A DNA stretch of 64,000 nucleotides from the NCBI RefSeq assembly GCF_010501095.1, contig NZ_QVMP01000002.1:111280-175279 (forward strand). The letters run 5' to 3'. The notes below the pieces were generated by a model, which had not been told where the DNA came from, ran no database searches, and saw nothing but the letters and a program-made list of their open reading frames with translations. The DNA comes from Dysgonomonas sp. 520. GTDB lineage: Bacteria; Bacteroidota; Bacteroidia; Bacteroidales; Dysgonomonadaceae. A program made the position numbers and the translations under genes. Each line of letters opens with the position of its first letter. Positions within the stretch are counted from its first letter, which is position 1. Positions 16,501-59,696 of this stretch are shown here, one piece after another.

Positions 16501-16561
16501 GATTTTACGGTTTAACTCTTGGTTTAACTTTTATCAAAAAACCATTATTATAAACACAAAA

Positions 16562-16589
16562 AAAGACTTACAATTTACTGTAAGTCTTT
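16562..16589 (-). terminator. Strong intrinsic terminator at the island border
   Basis: A perfect 11-bp stem (AAAGACTTACA/TGTAAGTCTTT) with a 6-base loop is followed on the minus strand by seven or more T. It sits just downstream of the tRNA-like scar, the usual place for a tRNA terminator. Confidence 0.7.
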
Positions 16590-16597
16590 GATTTTCA

Positions 16598-16622
16598 AGT
16601 GGGCGTTGACGGATTTTGAATG
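16598..16622 (-). other. tRNA 3'-end-like scar (possible attachment site)
   Basis: On the minus strand, TTCAAAATCCGTCAACGCCCA looks like the T-loop, T-stem 3' strand, acceptor 3' strand and discriminator of a tRNA whose 5' acceptor strand would be GGGCGTT. The rest of a tRNA is missing. Integrative elements often recreate a tRNA 3' end at their borders. With the integrase remnant and terminator beside it, I read this as a leftover attachment site. Confidence 0.45.
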
Positions 16623-16814
16623 TCCCATCTAACCCATATACTGTCAGTCATTTAACTATCAAAGATTGTATTCTACTCACTTGTTACTCACTCCATTTTT
16701 AGAGTGATTTTTAAGAGAACTTTTCCTCTTTAAGTAATAAGGCAAAGGTAGAAATAAATTTATAGATATCCTAATACTTGTTTTATTTTTCGTTTAATAA
16801 TACATATTTTTATG

Positions 16815-16822
16815 TATCTTTG
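16815..16822 (+). promoter_or_regulatory. Promoter -7 element of the abiE-TOTE operon
   Basis: TATCTTTG fits the consensus and implies a transcript start near 16830, about 20 bases before the ATG at 16851. This rejects the earlier in-frame ATG at 16812. Confidence 0.55.
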
Positions 16823-16850
16823 TACGGGAAATAAAATAGAAGACGGGAAT

Positions 16851-17618
16851 ATGAGTAAATATATCGAAGAATTCCATAAACTCAAAATCTTCCATAAAAA
16901 AGATATTGTTGTATTGACCGGTGACGAAAATGCAGCAAAAGAACTTTTACGAAGGTATAAACAGCAAGGGTTAATATCACAAGTAAGACGAGATCTCTAC
17001 GTTGCAACAGATTTGGCAACAAAAACCAGTTCTGCTTCAAAATACGAAATAGCCAGTCAAATAAACTCTTCTTCTTACCTATCCTACCATGCTGCATTAG
17101 AATATCATGGTCTGGCTCATCAGGTATTTTATGAAATGCAGGTTTCATCCAAAGAGAGGTTCAACAACTTTGAGTACGATGGGATTAGTTATATTTATTC
17201 GGAATCGAAATCAGATGCCGGAGTTATTATTCCTCCTGCTGATACATTAATCAGAGTAACCGATTTGGAACGTACTATTTTAGATTGTATCAATCAAATA
17301 GACCGAAGTGGTGGACTGGAAGAAATGATAGAATGTTTTGCCCTTATCACTTATATCAATGAGAATAAACTACAAGACTATTTGAAGCAATTCAATAAAC
17401 AGGTTCTTTATCAAAAGACAGGATTTGTTCTTGGCTACTTTCAAAAGGAAATGAAGTTAAGTGATGCTTTCTTTGATTTTTGTAAATCCAAGATTGGGAA
17501 AAGTATCCGTTATTTGACAGGTCAACAGGAATCCAATGTGTATTTTAATGAATGGAAGCTTTACGCTCCTAAAAACATTCTTTCATTTTTAGAACAAGGA
17601 GGAAACGTCAATGTATAA
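16851..17618 (+). CDS. AbiEi-family antitoxin
   Basis: 255 residues from the ATG at 16851. An N-terminal winged-helix region (HKKDIVVLTGDENAAKELLRRY, then a short turn and RRDLYV) is followed by the AbiEi core (YLSYHAALEYHGLAHQ, then TLIRVTDLERTILDCI). AbiEi antitoxins repress their own operon and neutralise the nucleotidyltransferase toxin AbiEii in type IV abortive-infection modules. The stop codon overlaps the start of the toxin gene by 8 bases, so translation is probably coupled. Promoter position and the family's N-terminal motif agree on this start. Confidence 0.85.
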   Translation: MSKYIEEFHKLKIFHKKDIVVLTGDENAAKELLRRYKQQGLISQVRRDLYVATDLATKTSSASKYEIASQINSSSYLSYHAALEYHGLAHQVFYEMQVSSKERFNNFEYDGISYIYSESKSDAGVIIPPADTLIRVTDLERTILDCINQIDRSGGLEEMIECFALITYINENKLQDYLKQFNKQVLYQKTGFVLGYFQKEMKLSDAFFDFCKSKIGKSIRYLTGQQESNVYFNEWKLYAPKNILSFLEQGGNVNV

Positions 17619-18564
17619 TTATAGCAAAACTGATTTGGAGAGAATCGCTTCCGGTACAGATTTTATCCGGGATAATCTGGAAAAAGTGTTCCGCCTTTGT
17701 GATATCTTGAAACACTTAAATGAAAACCCGTTATTTGCCGAACATTTAGCATTAAAAGGGGGAACTGCAATTAACCTGACAGTTTTTAATCTTCCACGCT
17801 TATCGGTTGATATTGACTTGGATTTTACCAAAGAGTGTTCACGGGATGAAATGATGAAAATCCGGGAGAATATCAATCAGGATTTCCTGAACTATATGTT
17901 TACACAAGGATATGCTTTAAGTCCTAATACCAAAAGTCCGCATTCTCTTGATTCATGGGTATTTTATTTTCAGAACGCAGGAGGAAATAAAGATAACCTG
18001 AAAGTAGAGATAAACTATTCTTTGCGAAATCATATCTTGCCAATAGTTGAAAAGAAAGTGAATATAGACTTTCTACAATTTGACTCTGAAGTAAAAACAC
18101 TTTCTACCCTTGAACTATTTGGGAGTAAAATTAAAGCTCTTATTGAGCGGACAGCGCCCCGGGACTTGTATGATATTCACAATATGTTGAAATATAACAT
18201 CATCCATCCTGATGAGATGAACAAACTCCGCAAAATTATATTATTCTATCTTGCTGTAGGAGGTAGTGATAAACCGTCAAACAGCTATAGCTTTGAAAGT
18301 ATTGACAACCTGAAATTTGCACAAATCAGAAGTTCTTTACTTCCCGTCCTCAAGAAAAGCGAACGATTTGACTTTGAATCAGCAAAAGTAGAAGTGAAAG
18401 CATTTCTTATGAAACTGATGATATTTACCGAAGATGAAAAGTCATTTATCGAAAACTTCAACAACAATATCTATCGACCTGAATTATTGTTTGAAGATAC
18501 TGAAATTGTAGAGCGAATCAAAGATCATCCAATGGCAATTTGGAAGATAAGGAATAACAAATAA
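17611..18564 (+). CDS. AbiEii/AbiGii nucleotidyltransferase toxin
   Basis: A 317-residue member of the nucleotidyltransferase superfamily. The motif LKGGTAINLTVFNLPRLSVD begins near residue 48 and runs into DIDLDF, which supplies the GG and D-x-D metal-binding signature. The C-terminal half is helical. AbiEii-type toxins transfer nucleotides to tRNA or other targets and stop growth during phage attack. The gene overlaps the antitoxin gene and ends 10 bases before the TOTE gene, so toxin-antitoxin and TOTE protein appear to form one three-gene operon. No catalytic residue is obviously missing. Confidence 0.85.
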   Translation: MYNYSKTDLERIASGTDFIRDNLEKVFRLCDILKHLNENPLFAEHLALKGGTAINLTVFNLPRLSVDIDLDFTKECSRDEMMKIRENINQDFLNYMFTQGYALSPNTKSPHSLDSWVFYFQNAGGNKDNLKVEINYSLRNHILPIVEKKVNIDFLQFDSEVKTLSTLELFGSKIKALIERTAPRDLYDIHNMLKYNIIHPDEMNKLRKIILFYLAVGGSDKPSNSYSFESIDNLKFAQIRSSLLPVLKKSERFDFESAKVEVKAFLMKLMIFTEDEKSFIENFNNNIYRPELLFEDTEIVERIKDHPMAIWKIRNNK

Positions 18565-18574
18565 GAGGATTTAT

Positions 18575-21508
18575 ATGTCCGACCCCGAATTATTAAAGCG
18601 AATTGCAGAACTGGAAGCTCGAAATCTTGAGTTGCTTGCTGAAAATGATAGATTTCGGGAGATGTTAGGTTTGGCTCAAATAAACTCAATTTCTAAAGAG
18701 AAAGCTCAATTACAAGACGCTCTGAAACAGTACAATAGCATAGAAATTGCTTCCAAATCCTCAATAGATAAATACAGCACTCCTGATGAAAAAATAGAAT
18801 TGTTTCAGTCTTTATTTCGGGGACGAACTGATGTATACGCTAAACGCTGTTACAGCAAGAAGCATGGAAGTGCTTATTATATCCCTGCATGTAAAAACGA
18901 ATGGGTAAAAGGAGTTTGCGATAGAACACGTATTAAATGCAAAGATTGTAATAATCGGGATTTATTGCCACTGACAAAAGAAGTTGTCAATAGCCATTTA
19001 CGGAATAAAGATGAACATGGTGCCGGAATTGCCGGAGTTTATCCACTCTTGCCGGATGAAAGCTGTTTATTTCTTGCAGTTGATTTTGATGAAGCAAAAT
19101 GGGAAGAAGACATAAAGGTGTTTCGCTCTGTATGTAACACATATAATATTCCGGTTGCCATTGAACGTTCCCGTTCAGGAAACGGAGCTCATGCATGGAT
19201 GTTTTTTGAAGAGTCTATCTCAGCAGCGTCTGCTCGAAGACTTGGAAATGCGCTTTTAACAAAAGCCATGTCGGTTAGACATGAAATACGCTTCACTTCG
19301 TATGATAGAATGTTTCCTAATCAGGATTTTATGCCTAAAGGAGGCTTTGGAAACTTGATTGCTTTACCATTACAAGGTGGAGCTCGTGAAAATGGGAATA
19401 GTGAATTTATAGATGATAACTTTTTGAGTTATCCTGATCAATGGGCATATTTGGCCACTATCAGGAAAATGAGCTCAGACGAAATCGGGATTTTACTAGC
19501 CACTCTGTGTGATGGGAATGGGTTAGGCGAACTTGGGCATTTGGAAAATGAAGAGGAGAACTTATTCAAGCCTTGGGAAAGCAAAAAAGCGGAAAGTATT
19601 CTCGAAAAGAAAGATTTCCCAGATACATTGACTATCATTGAAGCAAACCGTTTGTATATTTCCAAAGACAAAATAAGCCCACGAGCACTCAATCGCATTA
19701 AACGATTAGCTGCATTTCAGAATCCTTTATTCTACAAAACACAAAAGATGCGGATGTCTACCTATGGTATTCCGAGGATTATCTATTCATTGGAAGAAAC
19801 GGATCAATATATCGGTATTCCTCGAGGTTGTCGTTCCTCTCTTATTCATTTGCTCGAAGAATCAAATGTAGAATATGCTTTCGATGATAAACGAAATAAA
19901 GGAAGACATATTAAGGTCAGTTTCAAAGGAATCCTTCGGGAGGAGCAGCAATCAGCAAAAGAAGTCTTGCTTCAGCACGAGAATGGCATACTATCTGTTC
20001 CTACGGCTTTCGGGAAAACTGTTATCGGAGCATCACTTATCACAAATAGAAAATGCAATACATTGATTTTAGTTCATCTACAAACTTTATGCGATCAATG
20101 GAAAAAATCATTGGAACAGTTTCTCGAAATAAATGAAATCTTACCGGAACTGGAAAAGAAGCGTGGACGAAAGAAGGTTCGTTCGATTATTGGTCAAATA
20201 GGTTCCGGTAAAAACACTTTATCCGGAATTATAGATATTGCACTTGTACAGAGTTTAGTCCATGAAAATGAAGTGGATGATATCGTAAAGAATTATGGTA
20301 TGGTAATAGTGGATGAATGCCACCATGCCTCTTCGCTTAATTATGAAAAGGTTCTTAGCGAAACGAATGCCCAATATGTCTATGGATTGACTGCAACACC
20401 AAAACGGCAGGACGGACAACATCCGGTTGTTTTTATGCAATGTGGTCCGATACGGTATAACGTTAGTGCAAAAGAACAAGCCGTCAAACGGAATTTTGAA
20501 CATTATGTTATACCATGCTTTACAGGATTTAGAAGGCCTTTCACACAAACGGAATCCGATTGGCACATAACAAAAATATATACGGCTCTAGCAGAAAATG
20601 AATTTCGCAATCAGCAGATTGCAACCGATGTATGTGAAGCTGTAACAAATGGCAGAACACCTATCATACTTACTCAACGAAAAGAGCATGTTGTGAGGTT
20701 GGCAGCTATTCTTAAAGACCAAACCAATGCACATATTATAACTCTTGTCGGAGCCGATTCCGCAAAAGTGAAAAACAAGATGATGGAATCATTAGCAGGC
20801 ATTCCACAAGAAGACAGACTCATTATAATTGCCACGGGAAAATACATTGGAGAAGGATTTGATTATCCACGCTTGGATACTTTGTTTCTTGCCTCTCCAA
20901 TCGCGTGGAAGGGAACATTGGCTCAATATGCCGGACGATTACACCGTGAATACCCCGGCAAGCAGGATGTGATTGTTTATGATTATGTGGACATTCATAT
21001 TCCGGTTTTGGAACGGATGTATCACAAACGGTTAACAGGCTACGCTCAAATCGGATATAAAGCTTTATTCTCAAAGAATGAACCGGATAAAATCAGCATG
21101 ATTTACGACAACAATACTTTTACCTCTATCATAAAGACTGATTTTGCTGAAGCGAAGAAAGAGATCAGAATTGCAAGCCCTTATATTCGCAAGGCTCAAA
21201 TTAAGGAAGTACTTGAATGGTTGAGAGCTCCTCTGGAAGCAGAAGTTTCGATTACCGTCATCACTCGTCCAATAGAATCATACAAGAAACAAGAACAGAT
21301 AAGAAAATGTATTGAAACTCTTCAAACAAAATTAACGGTCATACAAGAACCGGATATTTATCAGAAATACATCATTATAGACAATCGGCTCGTTTGGTAT
21401 GGAAGCATCAATCTCTTTGATTTCGGAAATCCGGAAGATACTATTATACGATTGGAGTCAAGAGAACTGGTGGATGAATTGAATGCTTTTGCAAAGGAAA
21501 GTATATAA
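18575..21508 (+). CDS. TOTE-type primase/SF2 helicase/PLD-like conflict protein
   Basis: 977 residues with several modules. Residues 1-60 are a coiled coil. Residues about 75-300 form the archaeo-eukaryotic-primase-like domain seen in TOTE conflict systems, with a Cys cluster (CKNEWVKGVCDRTRIKCKDC, residues 105-125) and a D-F-D metal pair near 168-170. Residues about 440-830 are an SF2 helicase with VPTAFGKT (Walker A, near 474), DECHH (near 578) and GLTATPKR (near 605). The last 120 residues resemble a PLD-type nuclease domain, but YQKYIIID has Tyr where the HKD motif has His, so this domain may be inactive or diverged. It starts 10 bases after the AbiE toxin gene. Predicted role: nucleic-acid recognition and remodelling in an anti-phage response. 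Confidence 0.8.
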   Translation: MSDPELLKRIAELEARNLELLAENDRFREMLGLAQINSISKEKAQLQDALKQYNSIEIASKSSIDKYSTPDEKIELFQSLFRGRTDVYAKRCYSKKHGSAYYIPACKNEWVKGVCDRTRIKCKDCNNRDLLPLTKEVVNSHLRNKDEHGAGIAGVYPLLPDESCLFLAVDFDEAKWEEDIKVFRSVCNTYNIPVAIERSRSGNGAHAWMFFEESISAASARRLGNALLTKAMSVRHEIRFTSYDRMFPNQDFMPKGGFGNLIALPLQGGARENGNSEFIDDNFLSYPDQWAYLATIRKMSSDEIGILLATLCDGNGLGELGHLENEEENLFKPWESKKAESILEKKDFPDTLTIIEANRLYISKDKISPRALNRIKRLAAFQNPLFYKTQKMRMSTYGIPRIIYSLEETDQYIGIPRGCRSSLIHLLEESNVEYAFDDKRNKGRHIKVSFKGILREEQQSAKEVLLQHENGILSVPTAFGKTVIGASLITNRKCNTLILVHLQTLCDQWKKSLEQFLEINEILPELEKKRGRKKVRSIIGQIGSGKNTLSGIIDIALVQSLVHENEVDDIVKNYGMVIVDECHHASSLNYEKVLSETNAQYVYGLTATPKRQDGQHPVVFMQCGPIRYNVSAKEQAVKRNFEHYVIPCFTGFRRPFTQTESDWHITKIYTALAENEFRNQQIATDVCEAVTNGRTPIILTQRKEHVVRLAAILKDQTNAHIITLVGADSAKVKNKMMESLAGIPQEDRLIIIATGKYIGEGFDYPRLDTLFLASPIAWKGTLAQYAGRLHREYPGKQDVIVYDYVDIHIPVLERMYHKRLTGYAQIGYKALFSKNEPDKISMIYDNNTFTSIIKTDFAEAKKEIRIASPYIRKAQIKEVLEWLRAPLEAEVSITVITRPIESYKKQEQIRKCIETLQTKLTVIQEPDIYQKYIIIDNRLVWYGSINLFDFGNPEDTIIRLESRELVDELNAFAKESI

Positions 21509-21550
21509 CTTGATATCAATATAATTAACGAATGTTTCTACGGATTAGCC

Positions 21551-21976
21551 TCACAAATAAGTCTTTATCTCCTCAACGAGTTTATTTAAACGAATATCTT
21601 TATTTGTTTTATTACCAATTTCACATTGCCAAACTATGATGACATTCCAACAATTTCTCTTCAATTCAGCAATGTTTTGAATATCACGTTCTATATTTCT
21701 TCCGATTTTTTCTTGCCAAAAGTCATGATTTGTTTCCGGTAATGTTCCTCGTTGACATGAATGTCCGTGCCAAAAGCATCCATGAACAAATATGACGGTT
21801 TTGTATTTAGGGAGCACAATATCCGGCTTTCCAGGCAGGATCTTTACATTCTTTCTAAATCGGAATCCCTTTGAGAACAAGAATTTTCGTACTAAAATTT
21901 CCGGCTTAGTTTCCTTACCGGAAATTTTAGACATTATATCAGAGCGCTTAGATTTTGAATATATATCGGACATCAA
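21551..21976 (-). CDS. vsr: Very-short-patch mismatch endonuclease
   Basis: A 141-residue Vsr family nuclease of the restriction-endonuclease fold. It shows the RSDIMSKISGKETKPE N-terminal motif, the catalytic core GKPDIVLPKYKTVIFVHGCF with the metal-binding Asp, and WHGHSC with the zinc or active-site His/Cys residues. Classical Vsr nicks T:G mismatches made by deamination of 5-methylcytosine, and usually accompanies a C5-methyltransferase, as here. In systems with MORC-like ATPases, Vsr is also proposed as the cleaving nuclease. It is the last gene of the leftward operon, converging with the TOTE gene 42 bases away. An alternative start 6 bases downstream (MSDIYSK) is equally good. Confidence 0.9.
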   Translation of the reverse strand: MMSDIYSKSKRSDIMSKISGKETKPEILVRKFLFSKGFRFRKNVKILPGKPDIVLPKYKTVIFVHGCFWHGHSCQRGTLPETNHDFWQEKIGRNIERDIQNIAELKRNCWNVIIVWQCEIGNKTNKDIRLNKLVEEIKTYL

Positions 21977-21985
21977 AAATTGTAA

Positions 21986-22453
21986 TTATTCATCGCTACC
22001 TTCACTCTCATCGGCATATTCATTATATTCTTGATAGTCTTCAATAAAGTCAGGACAAACAGAAACAACTTCTCCTGTAATTACCTTTTCAATGAAGTCA
22101 TAAACATCATCAAGAAAATAGATTTCATCTTCCTCCGAATCATTACCATATCCATACGAAATATTTAGAATGGTTTCAGCAAGTTGCTTTATATTATTTG
22201 TTTTCACTTCAAATAAAACACTATCATGAGCAGAAGGAGAAACATAATAATATGTGAAATCATCAGCAACTTCGTCCAATTTCTGTCCGACAAAAGCTAA
22301 CATAGCATAATCATTAGCTATATCTCTGTTTGAACTTGAGAAAGTTTGAGTTGATTTTGGTACATATATTTCAAACGGTTGTTCTTTCTCATCCAATAAG
22401 CGATTAATAATATCGTCTATGTTATTCGTTTGTATATCTTGAATCTCTATCAT
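21986..22453 (-). CDS. Unrecognised acidic protein of the defence operon
   Basis: 155 residues I do not recognise. It is acidic, especially at the C-terminus (a run of Glu, Asp and Tyr), with alternating beta and helical segments and no signal peptide or membrane segment. It begins 21 bases after the receiver-domain gene's stop and ends 9 bases before vsr, so it belongs to the operon. A small acidic partner could be an inhibitor, a substrate mimic or an assembly factor; the sequence does not decide. The ATG at 22453 is the only plausible start. Confidence 0.65.
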   Translation of the reverse strand: MIEIQDIQTNNIDDIINRLLDEKEQPFEIYVPKSTQTFSSSNRDIANDYAMLAFVGQKLDEVADDFTYYYVSPSAHDSVLFEVKTNNIKQLAETILNISYGYGNDSEEDEIYFLDDVYDFIEKVITGEVVSVCPDFIEDYQEYNEYADESEGSDE

Positions 22454-22474
22454 AATCTATTTTCTGATTTATAA

Positions 22475-24109
22475 TTAATTCCCTGCTATTCTTAACCACT
22501 CGAACTCATCAAGCCCAACACGGGAAAGAGATGAAACATAGTTTGTAACAATTCTTTGTGAATGCAAATCTTTCAAATCTAAAACCCATACATATTTTTC
22601 ACCTTCCTCATAGATTTGAGTGAAAGTATATTTTCCATTTGTATCATCCATCACTCCTTTTACTTCTCCTTCATCGCAATTGGACTTGAATTTAATGGTT
22701 TTTATTGAATATGTTTTCTTATCCAACTTAAGTTTAACCCCATCAGGTGTAAGTATGTGAAATTTATTTTCTTCTGTTTTTGTTAATGGTAGGAACAAAA
22801 ACTTTCGTTCCTCATCTCTTCCTAACCTAACGGAGTCACATCGTTGTTGGATACAAACATAGTAGTTGTCTTGATTTGAGGTACTTTTTATGATTGTTCC
22901 TAATGATAATTTTGGTGCTGTATTTTTAGGGATAAAAAGACTCTTGTGATGTGTCAATTTTGCAAATTTTTCGTTAAAGGCATCTTTATTATCTTGCTGG
23001 TCGAGATTAAGAAATAATTCTGTTGTCTTCGGATCTTTATATAGTTTTTCTATCTCTTTCTTAGATAATTTGCTATTAAATACTTCTTCAAAACGTTTTC
23101 CCACATCTTCCTTATCCGAATGTAATAATGCTTTTACAATATCTTGTGTTCTTTGAATATTTTTTCCGTTCAATGAAATATTTTCATTTGCAATATTACT
23201 CTCAATCCAAATGTCAATCAATTCCGTTTGCACTTTCTGAGGGATTGATGCATAATGCAATAAATCGGATATCGTATCTCCAAACAATTTTAGAAACAAA
23301 TCCTCCGAATCATTTTGAACCGGAAGCATGGCTTTATGCCCCATATAAGGAGCATCCAACTCTTTGGAAAATAGGCTAAGTATTTTGTGCGAATTGTCAC
23401 GAATAGAGGTCAAAGCTAATAATGCAAAATTCGATAAAAGTCCAGAAGTCATTACCGTAAGTTCAGTTAAAACGAAAGATGGTAAGTCTTCATAACGTAA
23501 TATTTTATCTTGTAAATGAGGACGTTGGGTAAAACGTGTATCTTCGGATTCTCCACTGGACTTTGCCCTGATTAATATCCGAATATTTGTAGAACAAACT
23601 TCACAATTAGCCGGCAACAACTCAAACTGCTGATTTTGTGGCAAGATATGATCATAAACACTTTGAGTTATTTCTTCTAAAATATCATCTCCCGTATAAA
23701 TAACAATCAGTTTTAAACTATTATTCCCAGAATTGTTAACCAATTCATTTATTATCTGTTTTGTGTATTGCCCTCTTGGGTCTTCTTCTTCCGCATCTTC
23801 TGTCTGGTCTTCGCCTACTGCTTCATCTTGTATTTCAATAAACCAATCAAGTATAACTACATCAGCTTTTTTTGAGATTTCTTTAAAGTCTTCAATATCA
23901 GAAACAGTCAAAGGGTTATATACTGCGCAAACCTTCTTCTCTTTGGCAAATGCTTTGGATATTTCATATGAATCGAATGCATGCTGGCTATTGTTTTGCA
24001 TTGAACCTGCAACTACATTACTCCCAAATGCTTTGTCATCAAGGAAAACAATACTCTGTAAGAATCCATTTGCTATCTCTTTGGATTTTTCAAAAAAAGC
24101 AGTACTCAT
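22475..24109 (-). CDS. Receiver-domain protein of the defence operon
   Basis: 544 residues from the ATG at 24109, 7 bases after the stop of the upstream ATPase gene; the longer frame from 24196 overlaps that gene and is not needed. The N-terminal 160 residues look like a divergent response-regulator receiver (Response_reg_2 type). QSIVFLDD gives the acidic pair Asp24-Asp25, ADVVILDWF gives the likely phospho-acceptor Asp88, and LIVIYTGDD supplies the Thr strand. An acidic insertion (EDQTEDAEEEDPRGQ) follows Asp88. The remaining 380 residues are mixed helical and beta with no known effector domain. Its upstream partner carries a histidine-kinase core, so the pair looks like a two-component relay. 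Confidence 0.65.
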   Translation of the reverse strand: MSTAFFEKSKEIANGFLQSIVFLDDKAFGSNVVAGSMQNNSQHAFDSYEISKAFAKEKKVCAVYNPLTVSDIEDFKEISKKADVVILDWFIEIQDEAVGEDQTEDAEEEDPRGQYTKQIINELVNNSGNNSLKLIVIYTGDDILEEITQSVYDHILPQNQQFELLPANCEVCSTNIRILIRAKSSGESEDTRFTQRPHLQDKILRYEDLPSFVLTELTVMTSGLLSNFALLALTSIRDNSHKILSLFSKELDAPYMGHKAMLPVQNDSEDLFLKLFGDTISDLLHYASIPQKVQTELIDIWIESNIANENISLNGKNIQRTQDIVKALLHSDKEDVGKRFEEVFNSKLSKKEIEKLYKDPKTTELFLNLDQQDNKDAFNEKFAKLTHHKSLFIPKNTAPKLSLGTIIKSTSNQDNYYVCIQQRCDSVRLGRDEERKFLFLPLTKTEENKFHILTPDGVKLKLDKKTYSIKTIKFKSNCDEGEVKGVMDDTNGKYTFTQIYEEGEKYVWVLDLKDLHSQRIVTNYVSSLSRVGLDEFEWLRIAGN

Positions 24110-24116
24110 TTCCGCA

Positions 24117-27089
24117 TTATTTATTTTTTTCGATTTTAAAACTAACTGTGCTACCTTCTTGAGGTGAAGCAACAGAAATCTCATAATTTTCTGCATTCAA
24201 AACTTCTTTACTAATGCTTAGTCCCATACCTCTACCGTTCGGTTTTCGTGAAAAACCAAGTTCGAACATACGCTCTTTATCTTGAGGTAAAATTTCTACG
24301 CCGTTATTAGAAATATAGATGCCAGTATCATCTGCATGCAATCTTATTGTTTTTTCTTCCGTATCGCTCTGTTTAAGCCAATAAATTGCATTGTCGATAA
24401 TATTTACAAATACAGGATAAAAAGTCGAACGAAATCCAAAAATTTTTCGAGAAGCATATCCTTTTGTATGCTTGAATTGAATATTATGCCTTTCAAATCT
24501 GGATTTAAACAAATCTATTAGAAATGTTTTAATTTCCAATAAAGAAATGTCTTCCCGTTTTCGATTCAACCGTCTGTTTAATGGTGTAAATAAGTTAAGA
24601 TAACCATCCAAATGGTCAAAGTTTGTTTTAATATTTTTATAAATTCCATCTATCTGCTGGTCAACATCCGACCATGCTCTTAAATCTTTGAGGCTGCTTC
24701 TTATTGATTTGACAGTACTATTGAATTCATGATTCAAGATACCGACAGCCAATCCTAACTGACTTAATTCAATATCCGTTTGTACACGTTCTCTTAGTTC
24801 TTCTAATTCTTCCGATAGAGCATCAGTGATTTGGTCATTAGTTATAATTTGTCCATCAACATCTTTCTCGATATAGAATCCTTCGAATTGACGGATGATT
24901 TTATCCATAACAAAAGTGTTTCGGCTACTAATCATCTCAATTTCATCTTCCATTGATTTTCTTTCTTTAACCAAATCAAAATCTTCAGATTCGAGCATAC
25001 TCAAATTTTTAAAACGGTCTCTGACCGTTCTGATTTGGTTGTCCAAGTCCAGTATTAAATCGGAAGTAAACTCTTTAATCTTTTTTGAGACCTCATTAAC
25101 AACTTCATTTGTCTCATTTTTCTTTTCCGTATTTGTTTTTTTAGCTTCTACGGATATAAGTTCTACAGCTTGTTCCAACCGTTTCCGCTTACTTATCTCA
25201 ATATTAAGTTTCTTTGTATATTCGGATACAATGGAATCTATTTCATTTATGGCATTTCTGAACAAGGTTTCTTCTAATATCCTAAATTCTTTCAAGTAAG
25301 TATCAAAGTCAGTTCGTGCTGATTTTGATATTGTAAAACCCTTAGGGCTGGAAACTGCAATTCTTTTCTTATAATCATTTATTTTCTGCCGAGCATCAAA
25401 TTCATAATCAATAATTTTCTGTCCGGCTTCATCCATATCTTTACAATAAACCACCGAATTGAATTTCTTTCTGGTTTCTGTTAAGATATCATTTACTGCA
25501 ATTTCAAATCTACTGGAAGTAAGATTTTTAAAAAACAAATCAAGTTCTTTCAAAAATTTATCTTTTCTTCCTTTAGCTAATTCTTCACGCCTCTTTAATG
25601 CTAAATGATGTGTGTTTATTTCATTTTTCTTTTTTACCCAAAATTCGGATTGCGGACTTTCTCCTTTTTCATCAAAGAAATCAGCTGCCAATTGTACAAA
25701 AAAGTTTTTGAGTATAGCTTGCATTTGCCTGTATGCTTTATTCTCAATAAACCCCTCTCGTCCAGCCTTTTCCACTAAATTATTGTTGTTTTTTGCTGTA
25801 ATTTCAATCGCACCAAACATTCTCCTATACGAAAAGAAATAGGTAGACATTCTTTTTGTTCGGTTTTTTTCTATATCTAAAAAATCATAATCAGAATTTC
25901 CATAAGGCAGTACTCTGATATTATTTTTATAAATATAAAGACCACCAAATTTGTCTCCTTTTGCTTTAATTATAGCCCAGTTTTCAGCATCAACTCGGGT
26001 ACTTCTTAATTCTCCTTGTAAATAAGCAAAATTGATTTTAAAAGGACCACAATTGGTCTCTTTGAAACTATTTTCTCTCCAATTTACAATATGATCATAC
26101 GTTTTTTCACCGTAAATTTTGATTGTTCCTCTGAATTGACCGAATTCATCAAATGCTCCTTGAAAATGATGGTCAGCTAACTCAAATTCTTCAGGAGTGA
26201 AGAATTGTTCTTTATCTATCAGATTATCATAGATGCCATCTTCTCCTCGATAATCTCGAAAAGAAATATCGATCGCTGGAGCCGGATGTTCCGGAGTCAT
26301 TGTATTATGAAATCCGATTAACATTTTTTCAATAGGAGTAGCTTCCGTGCTATCCTTATCACCTTCTATATCAAATGCTAATGTTTCATTTACAGGCGAT
26401 ATGTAAAAAAAAGTACCGCCTTTGTTTTCTGAAAATTCAAAATTGCCGACTAGTTTACCATTAAGCTCTAAAGGTGAGATATTGAAGTCTTCAATGGTTT
26501 TCTTTACCCTGATATAATCCTCTTCTAAAATAACATCTTCTTTCAATAAACTATCCAAAGAATTAATGACTTCATTTTTAATATTATCTATATCAGTTTT
26601 ATTCGGAAGAGACTCAAATTCTTTAACCGGGATTGTTATATCCTCCAAATTAATTCCGGGTAACTCAAATAATTCCCAGTTTATAAAAGCAACAACAATC
26701 TTATATGCTTCCTTTCTTAGTTTAGCTTTACTAATAATAAGAACTTGTTTTCCTATAGATGCAATAGCCAGTCGCCCAATTCCTTTTTCACCCATTACCG
26801 GTCTTAAGGGCTTAGAATTATCTATTGGGGGTAATGTTGTTTTCTTGTTTGCAAACTTGCTTTCCGTTCCGATAGTAAGCCATCGTGTTTCAAATTCATC
26901 TTTGGTCATTCCAAGTCCGTCATCTCTTAAAACAATCAGATTGTCTTTTCTTAAGAAATCAATATCAAACTTATCCGCATATGCATCATGAGCATTCTTT
27001 ATTAACTCATTAATTGCGGTCGGTATACCTGCAATTTGCTGTCTTCCGAGCAAATCTAATGCTCTTGCTCGTGTTTTAAACTGTGCCAT
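24117..27089 (-). CDS. Dual GHKL ATPase: paraMORC-like N-terminus plus histidine-kinase C-terminus
   Basis: 990 residues. The N-terminus is a MORC/Hsp90-like GHKL module: NELIKNAHDAYAD (N-box, near 29), VLRDDGLGMT (near 55) and MGEKGIGRLAIASIGK (near 98). The middle (about 490-760) is long, charged and coiled. Residues about 775-815 resemble a DHp helix with a candidate phospho-His in ILNHEFNSTVKS (near 784). The end is a second, kinase-type HATPase: NIIDNAIYWL (N-box), ISNNGV and GRGMGLSISKEVL. MORC-like GHKL proteins are known next to methylases and nucleases in bacterial restriction-type operons. The start overlaps the methyltransferase gene by 14 bases, implying coupled translation. The region is visibly more AT-rich than the backbone. 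Confidence 0.8.
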   Translation of the reverse strand: MAQFKTRARALDLLGRQQIAGIPTAINELIKNAHDAYADKFDIDFLRKDNLIVLRDDGLGMTKDEFETRWLTIGTESKFANKKTTLPPIDNSKPLRPVMGEKGIGRLAIASIGKQVLIISKAKLRKEAYKIVVAFINWELFELPGINLEDITIPVKEFESLPNKTDIDNIKNEVINSLDSLLKEDVILEEDYIRVKKTIEDFNISPLELNGKLVGNFEFSENKGGTFFYISPVNETLAFDIEGDKDSTEATPIEKMLIGFHNTMTPEHPAPAIDISFRDYRGEDGIYDNLIDKEQFFTPEEFELADHHFQGAFDEFGQFRGTIKIYGEKTYDHIVNWRENSFKETNCGPFKINFAYLQGELRSTRVDAENWAIIKAKGDKFGGLYIYKNNIRVLPYGNSDYDFLDIEKNRTKRMSTYFFSYRRMFGAIEITAKNNNNLVEKAGREGFIENKAYRQMQAILKNFFVQLAADFFDEKGESPQSEFWVKKKNEINTHHLALKRREELAKGRKDKFLKELDLFFKNLTSSRFEIAVNDILTETRKKFNSVVYCKDMDEAGQKIIDYEFDARQKINDYKKRIAVSSPKGFTISKSARTDFDTYLKEFRILEETLFRNAINEIDSIVSEYTKKLNIEISKRKRLEQAVELISVEAKKTNTEKKNETNEVVNEVSKKIKEFTSDLILDLDNQIRTVRDRFKNLSMLESEDFDLVKERKSMEDEIEMISSRNTFVMDKIIRQFEGFYIEKDVDGQIITNDQITDALSEELEELRERVQTDIELSQLGLAVGILNHEFNSTVKSIRSSLKDLRAWSDVDQQIDGIYKNIKTNFDHLDGYLNLFTPLNRRLNRKREDISLLEIKTFLIDLFKSRFERHNIQFKHTKGYASRKIFGFRSTFYPVFVNIIDNAIYWLKQSDTEEKTIRLHADDTGIYISNNGVEILPQDKERMFELGFSRKPNGRGMGLSISKEVLNAENYEISVASPQEGSTVSFKIEKNK

Positions 27090-28134
27090 CAGGTAAACTA
27101 TTTATTATTGACAATCCAACTCTTTTTGCATATTCCGGCGGAACAGCATTACCTATCAGTTTTGCCGTAGCGGCAATGCTTGTTGTCTTAAAGATATAAT
27201 CTTTAGGGAAAGTTTGCAGAGTGGCTCCTTCTCGTAAAGAAATAGCTCGATCTTCTTGCGGATGGGCGAATCTACCATTTGATATGCTAAAAAATTTCGT
27301 CGTTATGGTTGATGCCGGTTTATCCCAAAACATCCTACCGTATGTATCTTTGAAGCTATCATCTTTCCCTATAAAACATTTCAATTGAAGATACGGATTG
27401 TCTTTCCATGCAAACCGATCTCCTCCATTATGAGGTGTTACAGCCAACCTTTCCAAGCAAATTGACTGTAATCCTGCCGCAGTATGGTTAAAGTCAGTTG
27501 TGTCTTTATGACCTGCATTTATTCTCTTAAAGCCGTTGCTTTCCCCGATAAACATGGACAATAAAGCTTGCTTTTCATCTGCTTTTGGCAGACTTATGTT
27601 ATCACTTACTCGTGATGCGATAAGAGAAAATCGTTTTCTCGATTGGGGAACGCCATAATAACTTAAATCAACAACATTTTCACAGATTTTGTAATTCTTC
27701 TTTGTAAGAAACTTTAAAAAATCAGGGAGAATGCTTTTTTCATTTGTCTTAAGTCCGGGAACATTTTCAACGACAACAAACCCCGGATTATAATAATCAA
27801 TAAATCTTGAAAAATTACGAAGTAAGTCTTTTGATTTCTTCGATTTCTCTTTATCCGTATTTATTATACTATAAAATTGACATGGGCTACAACCGACAAG
27901 GATTAAGTAATCATCATTTTTTTGGATCCCCATTTTTTTTTCAAAATAATTGCTTCTTAACTTTTTAATATCCGATAATATAAATTTTGCTCCCGGATTA
28001 TTCAGTTCGTATGTATTTTGGGCATCCTTGTCAAAATCAACACCAGCAATAACATCAATACCTGCTTGACGAAGACCGCACGTCATACCGCCCCCACCGC
28101 AGAAGAAATCTATTGCCTTATATTTTGCTTCCAT
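27076..28134 (-). CDS. DNA cytosine-C5 methyltransferase
   Basis: 352 residues with all the key C5-MTase motifs in order: FFCGGGGMTCGLRQAG (motif I, SAM), VGCSPCQ with the nucleophile Cys85 (motif IV), VVENVPGL (motif VI), QSRKRFSLIAS (motif VIII), SLREGATLQTFP (motif IX region) and LIGNAVPPEYA (motif X). The variable target-recognition region between motifs VIII and IX is short. The recognition site cannot be read from sequence. The gene begins 4 bases after the HTH gene's stop and overlaps the ATPase gene, so it belongs to one tightly packed operon. It probably marks self DNA for the operon's nuclease. Confidence 0.92.
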   Translation of the reverse strand: MEAKYKAIDFFCGGGGMTCGLRQAGIDVIAGVDFDKDAQNTYELNNPGAKFILSDIKKLRSNYFEKKMGIQKNDDYLILVGCSPCQFYSIINTDKEKSKKSKDLLRNFSRFIDYYNPGFVVVENVPGLKTNEKSILPDFLKFLTKKNYKICENVVDLSYYGVPQSRKRFSLIASRVSDNISLPKADEKQALLSMFIGESNGFKRINAGHKDTTDFNHTAAGLQSICLERLAVTPHNGGDRFAWKDNPYLQLKCFIGKDDSFKDTYGRMFWDKPASTITTKFFSISNGRFAHPQEDRAISLREGATLQTFPKDYIFKTTSIAATAKLIGNAVPPEYAKRVGLSIINSLPDGTV

Positions 28135-28138
28135 ATAC

Positions 28139-28354
28139 TTACTCCTTAGTTTTTGTAGAAACCAATAAATCTTTTACATCAACATCAAGCATGTTCGCTA
28201 TTTCAATAAACGTTTCTATTGTTGGCTGTTTTTCGTTAGTGCACCATCGGGAAACAGTTGATTCTGTTTTCCTCAATTGTGCTGCCAGCCATTTGTTGGT
28301 CAATCTTTTCTCTGCAAGAATAACCTTAATCCGATTTATTGCTTTTTCAGACAT
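28139..28354 (-). CDS. XRE-family HTH regulator of the defence operon
   Basis: 71 residues from the ATG at 28354. A Cro/CI-type helix-turn-helix covers most of it: LTNKWLAAQLRKTESTVSRW, then PTIETFIEIANMLDVDVKDL. Such small regulators act as C-proteins in restriction-modification operons, delaying nuclease expression until methylation is established. The promoter immediately upstream leaves a leader of only about 12 bases, so the longer frame starting at 28429 is ruled out. It is the first gene of the operon. Confidence 0.85.
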   Translation of the reverse strand: MSEKAINRIKVILAEKRLTNKWLAAQLRKTESTVSRWCTNEKQPTIETFIEIANMLDVDVKDLLVSTKTKE

Positions 28355-28372
28355 ATTTATTGTTCTAGCGTG

Positions 28373-28403
28373 CAAATTTATTGTTTCTTTTTCACCTGTG
28401 CAA
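28373..28403 (-). promoter_or_regulatory. Promoter of the HTH-MTase-ATPase-receiver-Vsr operon
   Basis: On the minus strand TTG, 20 bases, then TAAATTTG matches the Bacteroidetes consensus with ideal spacing. It drives a nearly leaderless transcript for the HTH gene. Confidence 0.8.
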
Positions 28404-28474
28404 CTGTCATATAGATAACTTATCAACACTTAGATACTTACATGCTTCGCTCCATTAGTATAACCTGATCAGCT

Positions 28475-28759
28475 TTATAGTTTGCAAACATGCTCCTCCA
28501 ACCACCTCAACACCTCAGATTCTTTATACAGTATCTTCCCCTTTATCTGAATAAACGGGATTTTTCCCGTATCCCGCCAATCCTGCAAGGTTCGAGACGA
28601 GATTTGAAGCATTTGGCAAACATTTCGGTTTGACAGGAATTTTTCTCCGTTCAGGTGTGGAGCTCGGTTTTTAAGGGCTTGCCGAATGGTGTCCAACAAG
28701 TCATCCAGAGCCGAGAAGAACGAATTTATTTCCGTTGATTTTCTATCTAACATCTCCAT
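28475..28759 (-). CDS. Excisionase-type helix-turn-helix protein 1
   Basis: 94 residues of the HTH_17 family common in Bacteroides mobile elements: a helical N-terminus, LSNRNVCQMLQISSRTLQDW as the recognition helices, then DTGKIPFIQIKGKILYKESE, the winged hairpin. Such proteins regulate excision and transfer genes or act as directionality factors. It is the last gene of a leftward cluster with DUF3876 and a second HTH gene. It lies next to, but separate from, the defence operon. Confidence 0.8.
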   Translation of the reverse strand: MEMLDRKSTEINSFFSALDDLLDTIRQALKNRAPHLNGEKFLSNRNVCQMLQISSRTLQDWRDTGKIPFIQIKGKILYKESEVLRWLEEHVCKL

Positions 28760-28770
28760 TGTTGCACTTT

Positions 28771-29052
28771 TTAGTTCCGCATATAGTCGCCCAATGTGGA
28801 AATGGTTAGTATATCCAGTTTAGCATCGTGGCTGATAGCCGTCCGTTTTAGGTCGTATTTGATAAAGAATCCGTCTTCATCTTCCTGTATCTCGTAAGTG
28901 GCTGGGCTTGCCTGTTTGCTTGTTTCGTTCATGTGGATGACGCTAAGCAAATAGCCGTCTCCATTTCGGTATATGATAACTGTCGGATTCAGGTTGATAC
29001 TCTCCCAACTGCCGACCAAACTATCTAAAAAGTTGTATCTCTTTGTTTTCAT
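28771..29052 (-). CDS. DUF3876-like protein
   Basis: A 93-residue soluble protein with the pattern LDSLVGSWESINLNPTVIIY, then GDGYLLSV and a C-terminal LTISTLGDYMR. This matches DUF3876, a small beta-rich family found almost only between HTH genes in Bacteroidales conjugative and mobilizable elements. Its function is unknown. Its start overlaps the end of the next upstream HTH gene by 4 bases, so the two are translationally coupled. Confidence 0.75.
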   Translation of the reverse strand: MKTKRYNFLDSLVGSWESINLNPTVIIYRNGDGYLLSVIHMNETSKQASPATYEIQEDEDGFFIKYDLKRTAISHDAKLDILTISTLGDYMRN

Positions 29053-29333
29053 TGTTGTTCTTTGCTGATTTGTGACTGACTGATTAAATTCTCAATATCC
29101 GATACCCGGTAATAACATTTACGCCCAATCTGTGAATATGGCAGAATGCCATTGTCCCTGTAAGATTGTAACGTTCGCTTTGATGTTTGCAGAAGTCCGC
29201 AAACATCATCGTTGCCTAACCATTTTTCTTTATCCTGATTCTCCCTGCATAGATTTCTTACCTGTCGGGAAAAATCCTCAAAACGTTGCTTTACCTGTTC
29301 ATACGTTTTCTTTTCTATTGCTATTATTTCCAT
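29049..29333 (-). CDS. Excisionase-type helix-turn-helix protein 2
   Basis: 94 residues: a charged N-terminal helix, then LGNDDVCGLLQTSKRTLQSY, NGILPYSQIGRKCYYRVSD and a short polar tail. It is the same HTH family as the neighbour at 28475 but clearly divergent. The stop codon overlaps the DUF3876 start. It is probably a regulator of the mobilization module. Confidence 0.8.
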   Translation of the reverse strand: MEIIAIEKKTYEQVKQRFEDFSRQVRNLCRENQDKEKWLGNDDVCGLLQTSKRTLQSYRDNGILPYSQIGRKCYYRVSDIENLISQSQISKEQQ

Positions 29334-29352
29334 CTTACTATATTTTAGTTGA

Positions 29353-30039
29353 TTACTCCCTTATAAATTTCATATAGTCGAAAACGCTAGCTTCATTGCC
29401 AGAGATAAACTGTCTGTCATCCTCAACTCTATTCAGGATAGCCATCGCTCGTTCTTCTGCCCCATGAATCTGTTTGGTAAATTGATTATAAATATCAGCA
29501 CCCTCAATTTTAGGTATAATATGAGCAACTTGCGTTTCCTCTTCTTTCGTAATAGGATTACCTTTCAGTGTCCTAACTACCAATTCAAATTCGTCAAGGC
29601 TTGTTCCCGAACTGAATTGCGACCGTTCCTTTTCTGTTAGAACCGGAATTTCTTCTTCGTCCAAATAGTTGTCAGTATCAACGTCTGAAAGTTCTTTTCT
29701 CTCCAATGGGATAGACATAAAAGGCTTATTTTCTTCTATCATCTTGGATTGTTGCAGCACCAGTTCTTTCAGTTCGGCAATTTCTTTTTTTAGTGGGTCT
29801 TCGGGTTTTATTGGTTCCGGTTGTGTCTGCTTAGAGATGCTATTCTCTTTCAGTTTGAATTTCGATTTTCCGATAATATCCGGTATAGGATCTTTGCATG
29901 AAGCCTCTTTCTTGCTATCTTCTTTCCTTGATTGATACTTCTTATCAAACCAGTCTTTAAAGATATTCCAAAGGTTCAGGCATGCCATGAAAAAACATGC
30001 CGTCGCCAATAGAATTGCTTTTATCTTTTCTGCTTCCAT
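29353..30039 (-). CDS. Conjugation-module protein, TraD/DUF4122-like position
   Basis: 228 residues. One N-terminal membrane segment (about residues 7-26) is followed by a charged linker with a short coiled coil (KKEIAELKELVLQQSKMIEE) and an acidic C-terminal domain ending in VFDYMKFIRE. I do not see a diagnostic motif. The position directly after the ParA-like gene matches the TraD-type gene of CTnDOT-family modules, which is the basis of the call. It begins 2 bases after parA and is surely co-transcribed with it. Confidence 0.5.
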   Translation of the reverse strand: MEAEKIKAILLATACFFMACLNLWNIFKDWFDKKYQSRKEDSKKEASCKDPIPDIIGKSKFKLKENSISKQTQPEPIKPEDPLKKEIAELKELVLQQSKMIEENKPFMSIPLERKELSDVDTDNYLDEEEIPVLTEKERSQFSSGTSLDEFELVVRTLKGNPITKEEETQVAHIIPKIEGADIYNQFTKQIHGAEERAMAILNRVEDDRQFISGNEASVFDYMKFIRE

Positions 30040-30041
30040 AT

Positions 30042-30827
30042 TTACAGATTGATTGTTTTGATAATCTCCTCAACTAACAAATCCAAATTGCTGCCATTTA
30101 GCAATGGTTTATCAGGAGGGAATATTGTTGAGAGGAACAGATAATCATTTCCTTCAATGGATTGTTCCCTGTCATAACGGACACTTTGCGGGATGCGGCT
30201 CTCCATAATGGAAATACCTAATCCTAAAATAGCTTCTTCGTAATAATTGAATAGCTCTTTTCTCTCCCGATTTGTTACTCTGTTCCAGAACGGATAGATA
30301 CCCTTCAATCTAACTTGCGGATTCATGGTTATCATCTCGTTAATAGAAATGATAAATGGTAGGGTGCTTTCCATATTAATTCGAGAAGTGGTTATCGGAA
30401 CAAACAGATAATCCATCAGGAAGAATATCTCGACCACATTTTCATTGTTTACCGTTCCCGGCAAGTCGAATAATACTACATCGTATTCTTCCGATTCGTT
30501 TTCCCAAAATGCTTTTGCCCTTATCAAGGCTTGTTCCGGTTCGGTCGGAACGATAGGATAAGTAGGTTTACCTAATTTCGTGAACAGGGCTTCCGCTTTC
30601 CTTTGATAAAAAGCATTAGTTTGTAATTGTTCCGCTTCCCGCTTCCGCATCTTCTGGATACTCCATTGTGGGAAGTCGCAATCTATTACAGCCACATTAT
30701 AGTTTTTCAGATAATGTAGATAACTGGCTACTAAAGTTGTGAAGACGGATTTGCCTGCTCCTCCTTTTTGTGTACAGAAAGAAATATACACAGGTCTTGC
30801 TTGTTTTTGATTCTCTGAATTGCTCAT
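30042..30827 (-). CDS. ParA-like ATPase of the mobilization module
   Basis: 261 residues with a deviant Walker A (CTQKGGAGKSVFTTLVASYL, near 19), VAVIDCDFPQ (A' motif) and VVLFDLPGTVNN (Walker B). These features define the MinD/ParA family. CTnDOT-like elements carry such a gene (TraA) at the head of the transfer region, where it may help maintain or position the excised circle. It lies between a DUF3408 gene and the TraD-position gene in one leftward operon. Confidence 0.88.
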   Translation of the reverse strand: MSNSENQKQARPVYISFCTQKGGAGKSVFTTLVASYLHYLKNYNVAVIDCDFPQWSIQKMRKREAEQLQTNAFYQRKAEALFTKLGKPTYPIVPTEPEQALIRAKAFWENESEEYDVVLFDLPGTVNNENVVEIFFLMDYLFVPITTSRINMESTLPFIISINEMITMNPQVRLKGIYPFWNRVTNRERKELFNYYEEAILGLGISIMESRIPQSVRYDREQSIEGNDYLFLSTIFPPDKPLLNGSNLDLLVEEIIKTINL

Positions 30828-30863
30828 GATGCTTTTTTTAGTTTATACTGTTTCTGAAATGAA

Positions 30864-31322
30864 TTACTTACCGCTCCTTTTTATGGGCCTTTTGATGTTC
30901 TCTTCGTAGATACGATTGATTTCATCTTCATAGAGTTCGATATGATGGCTGATGATGTTATCAACCAATCCGCTGACGCTAATCCGTTCATTGCGTATTG
31001 AGCGGACAAGGGTTTGAAGAACTTCGTAGTTGTCTTTGCCGATATACAATCCCTGCCGATTACGAAGTTCATTACGGGAAAGAAATACCGATTCATAATC
31101 AACCGATTGTCCCCTCTTCTTTTTGGGCGGTTCTTTTGTTTTTTCTTCAATGGAGATTTCCGGTTCTGCGTTCGTTTTGTTTCCGGCAACTTCCAACTGA
31201 TTTTCTGCCTGTGTGGATTTAGGCATTTCTTCATTGCTGCCTGCAACCGCGACTTGACGGATAAATGCACTTGTGTCTATCTTCACACCTGCTTTTTTGC
31301 TTACTTGATTATCTTCTTCCAT
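30864..31322 (-). CDS. DUF3408 protein of the mobilization module
   Basis: 152 residues. The N-terminal half is a low-complexity linker rich in Glu, Lys and Pro. The C-terminal half is a DUF3408-type ribbon-helix-helix-like domain: LYIGKDNYEVLQTLVRSIRN, then VSGLVDNIISHHIELYEDEI. DUF3408 proteins accompany ParA in Bacteroidales elements and probably bind DNA. This is the first gene of the leftward transfer operon, whose promoter should lie in the hairpin-rich gap to its right. Confidence 0.82.
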   Translation of the reverse strand: MEEDNQVSKKAGVKIDTSAFIRQVAVAGSNEEMPKSTQAENQLEVAGNKTNAEPEISIEEKTKEPPKKKRGQSVDYESVFLSRNELRNRQGLYIGKDNYEVLQTLVRSIRNERISVSGLVDNIISHHIELYEDEINRIYEENIKRPIKRSGK

Positions 31323-31638
31323 ATATGAATGATTTTATGATTACCCACATTTATACAATTCTTCTTTTATTCATTAAATCAGCTATTCAGGTATCTGTTT
31401 CTGATTACTTGAACATTTGCACATCTGTCTATCTGCATACTTATCGCCAAATAGGCAAACAGACAATTTTTCTTATATCCTGACTTGCATTTTTGCTTTC
31501 ATTCCACAAAGAAAACGATAAAAGAAAGCTGATTTTGGAATCGAGTTTAAGTGGCACTGACTGACCGTTTCTGCCCGCTTATTCTGTTGTGTATAAGCGA
31601 AGTTCATCCCCTATCTTTGTCCAGCGGGAGTGAAAAGC

Positions 31639-31738
31639 CGGGAGTTATCTATGATTTAAAACTCCCGATAAATGAGTAACCGTTCCGGCTCCTATTAATG
31701 TCCGCCAATGCCGGCGGATTTTATTGTCGTCAGACAAT
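31639..31738. other. Hairpin cluster, putative oriT of element 1
   Basis: Three hairpins lie in the 540-base gap between the divergent transfer operon and mobA: 31639-31667 (8-bp CGGGAGTT/AACTCCCG), 31701-31718 (TCCGCC/GGCGGA) and 31723-31738 (ATTGTC/GACAAT). A relaxase operon starts 130 bases to the right. Divergent promoters plus tight inverted repeats next to mobA/mobB are typical of an origin of transfer. The nick site is not identified. The rest of 31323-31865 holds no gene. Confidence 0.45.
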
Positions 31739-31865
31739 AGCAAGAAGTGTTTTTGTCAGCAGAAAATTGCATTTTCTTATCTTCCAAAAACATTTCTTGC
31801 CCAAACCTAAAGTTTGGGGGCGGTTCTCCCAAGTCGAACCTTTTAAAGAATAAACTCAAAATTTA

Positions 31866-59452: not shown

Positions 59453-59518
59453 ACCATGTATTTTTAGGATTGGAAAATCTGAGTGTTTGAAGACACTCAG
59501 GCGAGCCGAAATGAAAGC

Positions 59519-59682
59519 GACCATCGGGAGTTGAAGTGGAGGATTGCTCGCAGCCTCGCAGTCAAGTGACCATCGGGAGCTGACTGTTCGGGGCTGAGCC
59601 CTCTGCAAGAGCAAGGTATGCACGGTAGTAATTCAAAAGGATGTGTAACGACTTTTGGGTTACCCGTGTGATTACCTTGCTC
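59519..59682. other. Repeat-rich region, putative oriT of element 2
   Basis: The 16-base direct repeat GACCATCGGGAG[T/C]TGA occurs at 59519-59534 and 59568-59583, and the inverted pair GAGCAAGGTA (59609-59618)/TACCTTGCTC (59673-59682) brackets 54 bases. The position, directly upstream of mobC-relaxase, is where an origin of transfer is expected. Confidence 0.45.
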
Positions 59683-59696
59683 CTTTGACGACGAGA

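Follow-up and report, generated by a model that had tools for sequence, protein, structure and literature searches.

A C5 methylase, a MORC-type ATPase–histidine kinase and a receiver protein as a possible mobile surveillance relay in Dysgonomonas

Three consecutive genes in the window (the whole 64,000-nucleotide stretch of Dysgonomonas sp. 520 DNA analysed here) encode a C5 cytosine DNA methyltransferase, a MORC-type ATPase joined to a histidine kinase, and a receiver protein. Elsewhere, this methylase–kinase–receiver set is the co-occurring core and is nearly constant. The set probably serves in DNA surveillance or defence, with these three genes as the essential part, and we give slightly less than an even chance to the reading that they constitute a mobile surveillance relay linked to DNA modification.

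Organisation of the locus and architecture of the core proteins

Open reading frames and profile searches place AbiEi, AbiEii and TOTE genes rightward and six genes leftward. The leftward operon (reverse strand) begins with an XRE-type, controller-like HTH regulator of 71 residues (28139–28354; HTH_26, 5.2e-9; HTH_3, 8.2e-9), whose most likely start is the ATG at 28354 and which lies 4 bases upstream of the methylase. The core follows, consisting of the C5 methyltransferase (27076–28134; 352 residues; DNA_methylase, 1.6e-51; dcm superfamily above cut-off), the MORC-type ATPase–kinase (24117–27089; 990 residues) and the Response_reg_2 receiver (22475–24109; 544 residues; PF19192, 3.2e-28). Two accessory genes complete the operon, one for an acidic orphan, ORF155 (21986–22453; 155 residues; no family match above cut-off), and the other for a Vsr mismatch endonuclease (21551–21976; 141 residues; Pfam, 1.2e-36). 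The genes are tightly packed, with intergenic gaps of 4, −14, 7, 21, and 9 bases from HTH to Vsr. For the receiver, the most probable start is the ATG at 24109 rather than 24196, where the listed ORF begins, because the first 29 codons of that ORF overlap the GHKL gene and the homologs begin at 24109. The gene content and orientations given in the first-pass annotation thus held in the ORF, Pfam, PADLOC, and NCBIfam matches, with two starts refined. A chance origin of the domain calls is excluded by their E-values (HEF_HK, 3.6e-28; Response_reg_2, 3.2e-28; Vsr, 1.2e-36) and by the same gene order in other phyla. The genome itself (3.9 Mb, 68 contigs) contains one HEF_HK gene and one Response_reg_2 gene, both at this locus, and Response_reg_2 passed its cut-off in 9 of the 395 genomes scanned from the phylum and in 4 of the 101 from the family, counts that include this genome, and in none of 14 control genomes.

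The kinase protein is composed of a GHKL and S5-like region (residues ~5–485), a coiled coil (~451–740), a DHp region with H787-E788-F789, and a C-terminal HATPase_c domain (891–988). Pfam recognised HATPase_c_3 (24–137), HEF_HK (777–843), and HATPase_c (891–988), all above cut-offs. In the alignment of 66 kinases including that of the window (A4; five of the 70 listed were left out), E28, N32, G100-G105, H787-E788-F789, N896, D899, and G952-G956 are invariant. The ATP motifs of the N-terminal GHKL and following S5 domain, the arrangement characteristic of paraMORCs, are thus intact in the alignment and the model, and the conserved DHp histidine is followed by an acidic residue, as H787-E788. 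In the predicted structure (pLDDT, 79.9; pTM, 0.57), residues 5–485 superpose on MORC3 (5ix2_A; Z-score, 17.3; 328 aligned residues; root-mean-squared deviation, 4.2), the catalytic domain on 8a7f_A (Z-score, 19.0; 142 residues), and the kinase core on HK853 (6rfv_B; Z-score, 17.4; 192 residues), and the Foldseek matches include SMCHD1 and MORC2. The model therefore supports a MORC-type ATPase and a complete histidine kinase linked by a coiled coil, in keeping with the histidine-kinase core proposed earlier within a MORC-like ATPase and recognised by Pfam as well. The family phrog_8137 (572 positions, unannotated function) matched kinase residues 385–986 with 340 bits in the PHROG search, which suggests that a virus-assigned relative lacking the MORC portion exists. 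A phage collection of 50,697 records gave four partial kinase matches, one annotated as ParaMORC3, and no receiver match. PADLOC-DB 2.0.0 gave a kinase match of only 0.028 and no model matching the receiver.

The receiver protein consists of a REC domain (~16–222) with D88, a helical middle, and a C-terminal beta-rich domain. D24, D83, D88, and K183 are invariant among 72 aligned receivers including that of the window (A3; four of the 75 listed were left out). The REC domain of the model (pLDDT, 89.4) superposes on KdpE (Z-score, 12.3; 118 residues; root-mean-squared deviation, 2.2), supporting the assignment of a true receiver domain. The suggestion that the ATPase has its own receiver protein is thereby confirmed by PF19192, the invariant D88, and the predicted fold, and the guess of a phosphotransfer relay appears correct in that all catalytic residues are kept in the sequences. 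Comparison of the receiver sequence with the PDB gave no relative and two chance-level matches only. Foldseek of the model against the PDB and a viral library gave nothing at an E-value of 0.001 or better, and the structure matches in the VIA list were all taken up by the REC domain. Over the 72 receivers, Response_reg_2 is the sole Pfam domain found in more than one member, the single weak matches being one canonical Response_reg (0.0098) and one Tox-REase-7 (0.032); in the window receiver, no other Pfam domain is above cut-off. No nuclease or other effector domain was recognised in the kinase or the receiver, of which the coiled coil and receiver residues 223–544 were barely probed by the fold searches.

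The three-gene core and its variable surroundings

The survey comprised 85 loci, namely the best 80 of 92 relatives on genome contigs, four on viral contigs, and the window; the set is partly redundant (L032 equals L035, and further repeats are present). BLAST best matches in these 85 loci (best 80 of 92) numbered 83 for the kinase, 78 for the methylase, 40 for Vsr, three each for ORF155 and TOTE, and two each for AbiEi and AbiEii. After 15 loci without a complete kinase or receiver gene had been dropped, 70 remained, and the methylase lies directly upstream on the same strand in 63 of these (best 80 of 92); of the other seven, five have a methylase on the opposite strand within two genes, one has it split, and in one the contig stops at that point. 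The methylase–kinase–receiver order is also kept in all six loci examined whose receiver is of a more divergent type. The first-pass annotation had expected the six leftward genes to recur as a fixed set, and this did not hold: in the 84 other loci (best 80 of 92), HTH relatives are found upstream of the methylase in only seven, and additionally in L031, ORF155 is found in only two, and Vsr is near about half, with the three core genes near constant.

The slot after the receiver was inspected in 76 loci (the 70 and the six above), of which eight with less than 1.5 kb downstream were dropped; the labels for the remaining 68 were set by hand. By these labels, 33 loci have Vsr and 24 another candidate effector, with an overlap of 11 (best 80 of 92). 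The 24 are composed of HNH (8), AAA (7), McrB-like (6), GHKL-REase-like (1), NOV_C (1), and DUF2806 (1) genes. No effector is recognised nearby in 22 of the 68 loci, including L029 (best 80 of 92), a number that is an upper bound because four HNH-cluster genes (in L029, L044, L096, and L099) that are more distant or on the opposite strand were left uncounted. A recurring McrBC-like pair of large genes follows the receiver in L052, L065, L066, L071, and L087, its first gene giving MrcB_N or AAA matches where scanned.

Stand-alone units of the three genes have also been found. The complete Pantoea dispersa plasmid pML.8a3 carries just the methylase, kinase, and receiver between metabolic genes, and on a Pseudoalteromonas plasmid the three genes lie 1.2 kb from a DUF86/nucleotidyltransferase pair, plasmid neighbours being taken from the PLSDB gene table, which is incomplete. 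In Neptunicella and Alteromonas (L056 and L058), the unit adjoins a glmS-like gene; glmS is a known insertion hotspot. In L081, only 22 bases separate the end of the unit from a convergent pheS-like gene, but the methylase upstream is of the N6/N4 type. At the Pantoea plasmid, L056, and L058 units, no linked nuclease was recognised by Pfam among the selected neighbours that were scanned, and nucleases encoded at other places in the genome may contribute. Core genes also occur on contigs binned as archaeal (L070, Methanosarcinaceae; L072, Prometheoarchaeum; L077, Methanosarcina), two of them with Vsr, for which contamination is possible.

Among 59 dereplicated loci, the kinase and receiver distances are correlated at 0.907, and those of the methylase at 0.587 with the kinase and 0.557 with the receiver. 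Divergence of the methylase with the kinase kept is seen between L053 and L058 (methylase, 33%; kinase, 74%), and the converse between L088 and L111 (methylase, 78%; kinase, 37%). By these sequence comparisons, the kinase and receiver are a cognate pair, and the methylase is an exchangeable partner. A region of the kinase or receiver specifying the linked methylase was considered and rejected: a partial Mantel test by domain gave 0.21 (p 0.002) for the helical middle of the receiver and about 0 for its REC and C-terminal domains, and in a sliding scan the signals were diffuse and did not exceed 0.36, several of them also lying within the ATPase and kinase domains. Since these signals are diffuse and weak, reading of the methylated site by the kinase or receiver is unsupported.

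Proposed relay and competing readings

A further reading, which we put forward as possible but tentative, is that the three genes alone make a complete immune unit, in which a clamp on unmodified DNA would be read out by a His–Asp phosphorelay, the effector would reside in the output region of the receiver, the methylase would be the exchangeable specificity part, and nucleases would be plug-ins. In the relay favoured here as the most economical reading, the C5 methylase would mark the cell's own sites, as expected for its family, and the GHKL–S5 ATPase may form an ATP-dependent dimeric clamp on DNA that responds to unmarked DNA, by analogy with its MORC and MutL relatives. The coiled coil would relay the state of the clamp to the histidine kinase, leading to phosphorylation of H787, as the conserved residues suggest, and the phosphate would pass to D88 of the receiver, a step consistent with conservation and with the joint divergence of the two proteins. 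The helical and beta-rich output of the receiver may then act as, or switch on, a putative antiviral effector, and the nuclease or ATPase gene right after the receiver in many loci would provide an extra, interchangeable one. Vsr would serve the methylase by repairing the T:G mismatches that arise when 5-methylcytosine is deaminated, ORF155 would be a dispensable acidic accessory, and AbiE and TOTE would be independent neighbours.

The alternative that survives best, although doubtful, is a regulatory two-component system controlling the methylase and nearby restriction–modification genes with no direct attack on foreign DNA, which is near to the speculation in the available text of PMC8011034. 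The absence of a DNA-binding output family recognised by Pfam in any of the 72 receivers speaks against it, as does the HTH regulator already present in some loci, and the MORC clamp input would suggest DNA, not a metabolite, as the signal. It agrees with the true kinase and receiver anatomy of the models, with a methylase linkage that persists even without nucleases, and with the loci lacking a recognised effector nearby (22 of 68 as an upper bound; best 80 of 92). It is unlikely that the pair itself restricts DNA in the manner of BbrUII/HgiDII-type GHKL restriction enzymes, with the kinase and receiver folds serving to change conformation at the expense of ATP and not to transfer phosphate. 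The N-terminus of the kinase is nearest to the NCBIfam family of these enzymes (NF050001, 1.1e-21), but the match covers residues 9–137 only, at 77.1 bits against a cut-off of 550, so that what is shared is the N-terminal GHKL and only the ATPase part matches; the invariance of the His and Asp expected to carry the phosphate points to real chemistry.

Gating of Vsr by the relay, with Vsr cutting foreign DNA, was the model first proposed for this operon, in which Vsr is the last gene and the only nuclease recognised, no site-specific endonuclease being found beside the methylase by Pfam or NCBIfam. Vsr is also the commonest gene after the receiver, both here and in the available text of PMC8011034. 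Nevertheless, the window Vsr (TIGR00632, 146.4 bits against a cut-off of 97.85; E. coli Vsr 1cw0, 1.4e-31) shares, in alignment, the features of the E. coli mismatch enzyme and looks like an ordinary mismatch-nicking Vsr. It is present in the fetched flanks of 34 of the 70 complete loci and missing near the other 36 (best 80 of 92), and where present it lies downstream on the same strand in 17, upstream on the same strand in eight, and on the opposite strand in nine. Vsr accompanies C5 methylases generally, and its ordinary role is the mending of deaminated 5-methylcytosine. The gating model is therefore very unlikely, and Vsr is probably an accessory repair companion of the methylase, judged from its sequence; the broader link drawn earlier to C5 methylation and Vsr has stood, with the methylase directly upstream in 63 and Vsr near in 34 of the 70 loci (best 80 of 92).

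ORF155 is strongly acidic (pI, 4.05; net charge, −29), and the adjoining Vsr is basic (+12); that ORF155 is a partner or restrainer of Vsr is our guess. It gave no PDB, PADLOC, PHROG, or plasmid match, none in the viral contigs, and only sub-cut-off matches in Pfam and NCBIfam. It was found in three of the 85 loci (the window, L035, and L039, where it is broken; best 80 of 92), and in two of 101 and one of 395 genomes, own genome included.

The rightward genes belong to separate systems. AbiEi (16851–17618; PADLOC, 1.4e-94; best start, ATG at 16851) is followed by AbiEii (17611–18564; PADLOC, 8.5e-117), the composition of an AbiE system in Pfam and PADLOC, and the TOTE protein (18575–21508; AEP-TOTE, 2.6e-96), a convergent neighbour of the module, combines AEP (72–304), ResIII helicase (454–611), and PLD (856–971) domains in one protein, as in TOTE conflict systems. 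A 17-kb contig of Dysgonomonas sp. 511 (L035) aligns to 16503–33338 of the window with 96.2% identity. Mismatch density delimits within it a block at 18760–29290 with 99.66% identity (36 mismatches in 10,526 bases), comprising most of TOTE except its 5′ end, all the leftward genes between and including those for Vsr and the HTH regulator, and, as far as 29333, three small genes; the left and right flanks are 92.02% (180 of 2,257 mismatched) and 89.99% (405 of 4,045) identical, respectively. The dS values are at most 0.012 for the module genes and 0.018 for TOTE, versus 0.302 for AbiEi, 0.309 for AbiEii, 0.54 for ParA, and 0.70 for the relaxase of the backbone. Because the block is 99.66% identical while the flanks are 90–92% identical, TOTE and the module moved recently as one ~10.5-kb cargo block within a mobilisable element, and AbiE is part of the older backbone. 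A single integrated system of AbiE, TOTE, and the module, as claimed in the first-pass annotation, is scarcely credible despite the arrangement common to the two near-identical copies, since AbiE shows backbone divergence and, among the 85 loci (best 80 of 92), the core is mostly found without AbiE or TOTE, AbiEi and AbiEii being limited to the window and its near-copy and TOTE to these two and a helicase-only match (27.5%) in L087. L030 has a weak AbiEii-like match (36.6 bits) several genes off.

The element common to the window and Dysgonomonas sp. 511 spans 16503–33577, its genes at 28475–33577 encoding two HTH_17 proteins, DUF3876, ParA, DUF3408, MobC, and a relaxase (Pfam; PHROG excisionase and ParA matches). 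In the Dysgonomonas sp. 511 receiver gene, the codon for the phospho-Asp (codon 88) is immediately followed by an in-frame stop, for which reason that copy may be dead or misread, through decay or a sequencing error; the window copy is intact. In L031, from the same family as the window, relatives of the relaxase, MobC, and ParA lie beside a core of the divergent type, which is accompanied by an HNH gene and Vsr. At 57886–63998 of the window, another pair of mobilisation-like genes, together with a gene for a tyrosine integrase (PF00589; 62736–63998), suggests another mobile element near the window end.

Relation to described systems and significance

In Detocs, a kinase–receiver relay is employed in defence, with the receiver fused to an effector domain. 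To our knowledge, Detocs has no methylase or MORC part, and its output domain was not recognised in the window receiver by Pfam. The window set corresponds to one already described by Bellieny-Rabelo et al. in 2021 (PMC8011034), so that the pair, methylase, and Vsr are not new, contrary to what had been supposed. In its available text, that paper defines the Pfam domains HEF_HK and Response_reg_2 as a two-component-like set linked to restriction–modification, reports kinase–receiver gene linkage of 91.6% in 644 regions (as printed), places C5 methylases upstream, finds Vsr to be the commonest gene immediately following the receiver gene and HNH_2 the most frequent endonuclease domain, and suggests that the set derives from paraMORCs; the word "phage" is absent from the main text as available. 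The window shares the HATPase_c_3, HEF_HK, and HATPase_c layout, the adjacent receiver with the conserved Asp, and the upstream methylase, and its Vsr is likewise downstream but one gene further, after ORF155. Beyond the available content of PMC8011034 are the structure-level support for the MORC, histidine-kinase, and REC parts, the exchangeable methylase, the stand-alone three-gene units, the rare acidic ORF155, the recent cargo exchange, and the loci binned as archaeal. No experimental follow-up of the HEF_HK/Response_reg_2 set was found in the open-licence literature.

Iyer et al. (2008; PMC2292703) described paraMORC and prokaryotic MORC ATPases in restriction–modification operons, and the window protein shares with them the N-terminal GHKL and S5 domains and the company of cytosine methylases and Vsr, but in addition carries a complete histidine kinase and has a receiver protein as its partner; the word "receiver" is absent from the available text of that paper. 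VcSduA (PMC12137116), a GHKL-gated nuclease with phage defence, resembles the window protein in having a GHKL ATPase that is believed to govern an antiviral response, and differs, in the text available, as a single protein with its own PD-(D/E)xK nuclease and without a kinase or receiver. HATPase and REC are among the abbreviations given, in the available part of a 2026 predictor paper, for eight predicted, unvalidated systems, which may or may not include the window set.

Altogether, the present analysis separates the core from its accessories, makes a structural case for a MORC–kinase and a true receiver, and pinpoints residues H787 and D88. If the immune-system reading is true, it would mean restriction by a signal relay, in which DNA sensing by a MORC clamp is converted into a phosphorylation event, and would explain the spread of such cassettes without an obvious nuclease. 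It would also offer a biochemical entry to the bacterial relatives of MORC proteins, whose eukaryotic kin act in gene silencing.
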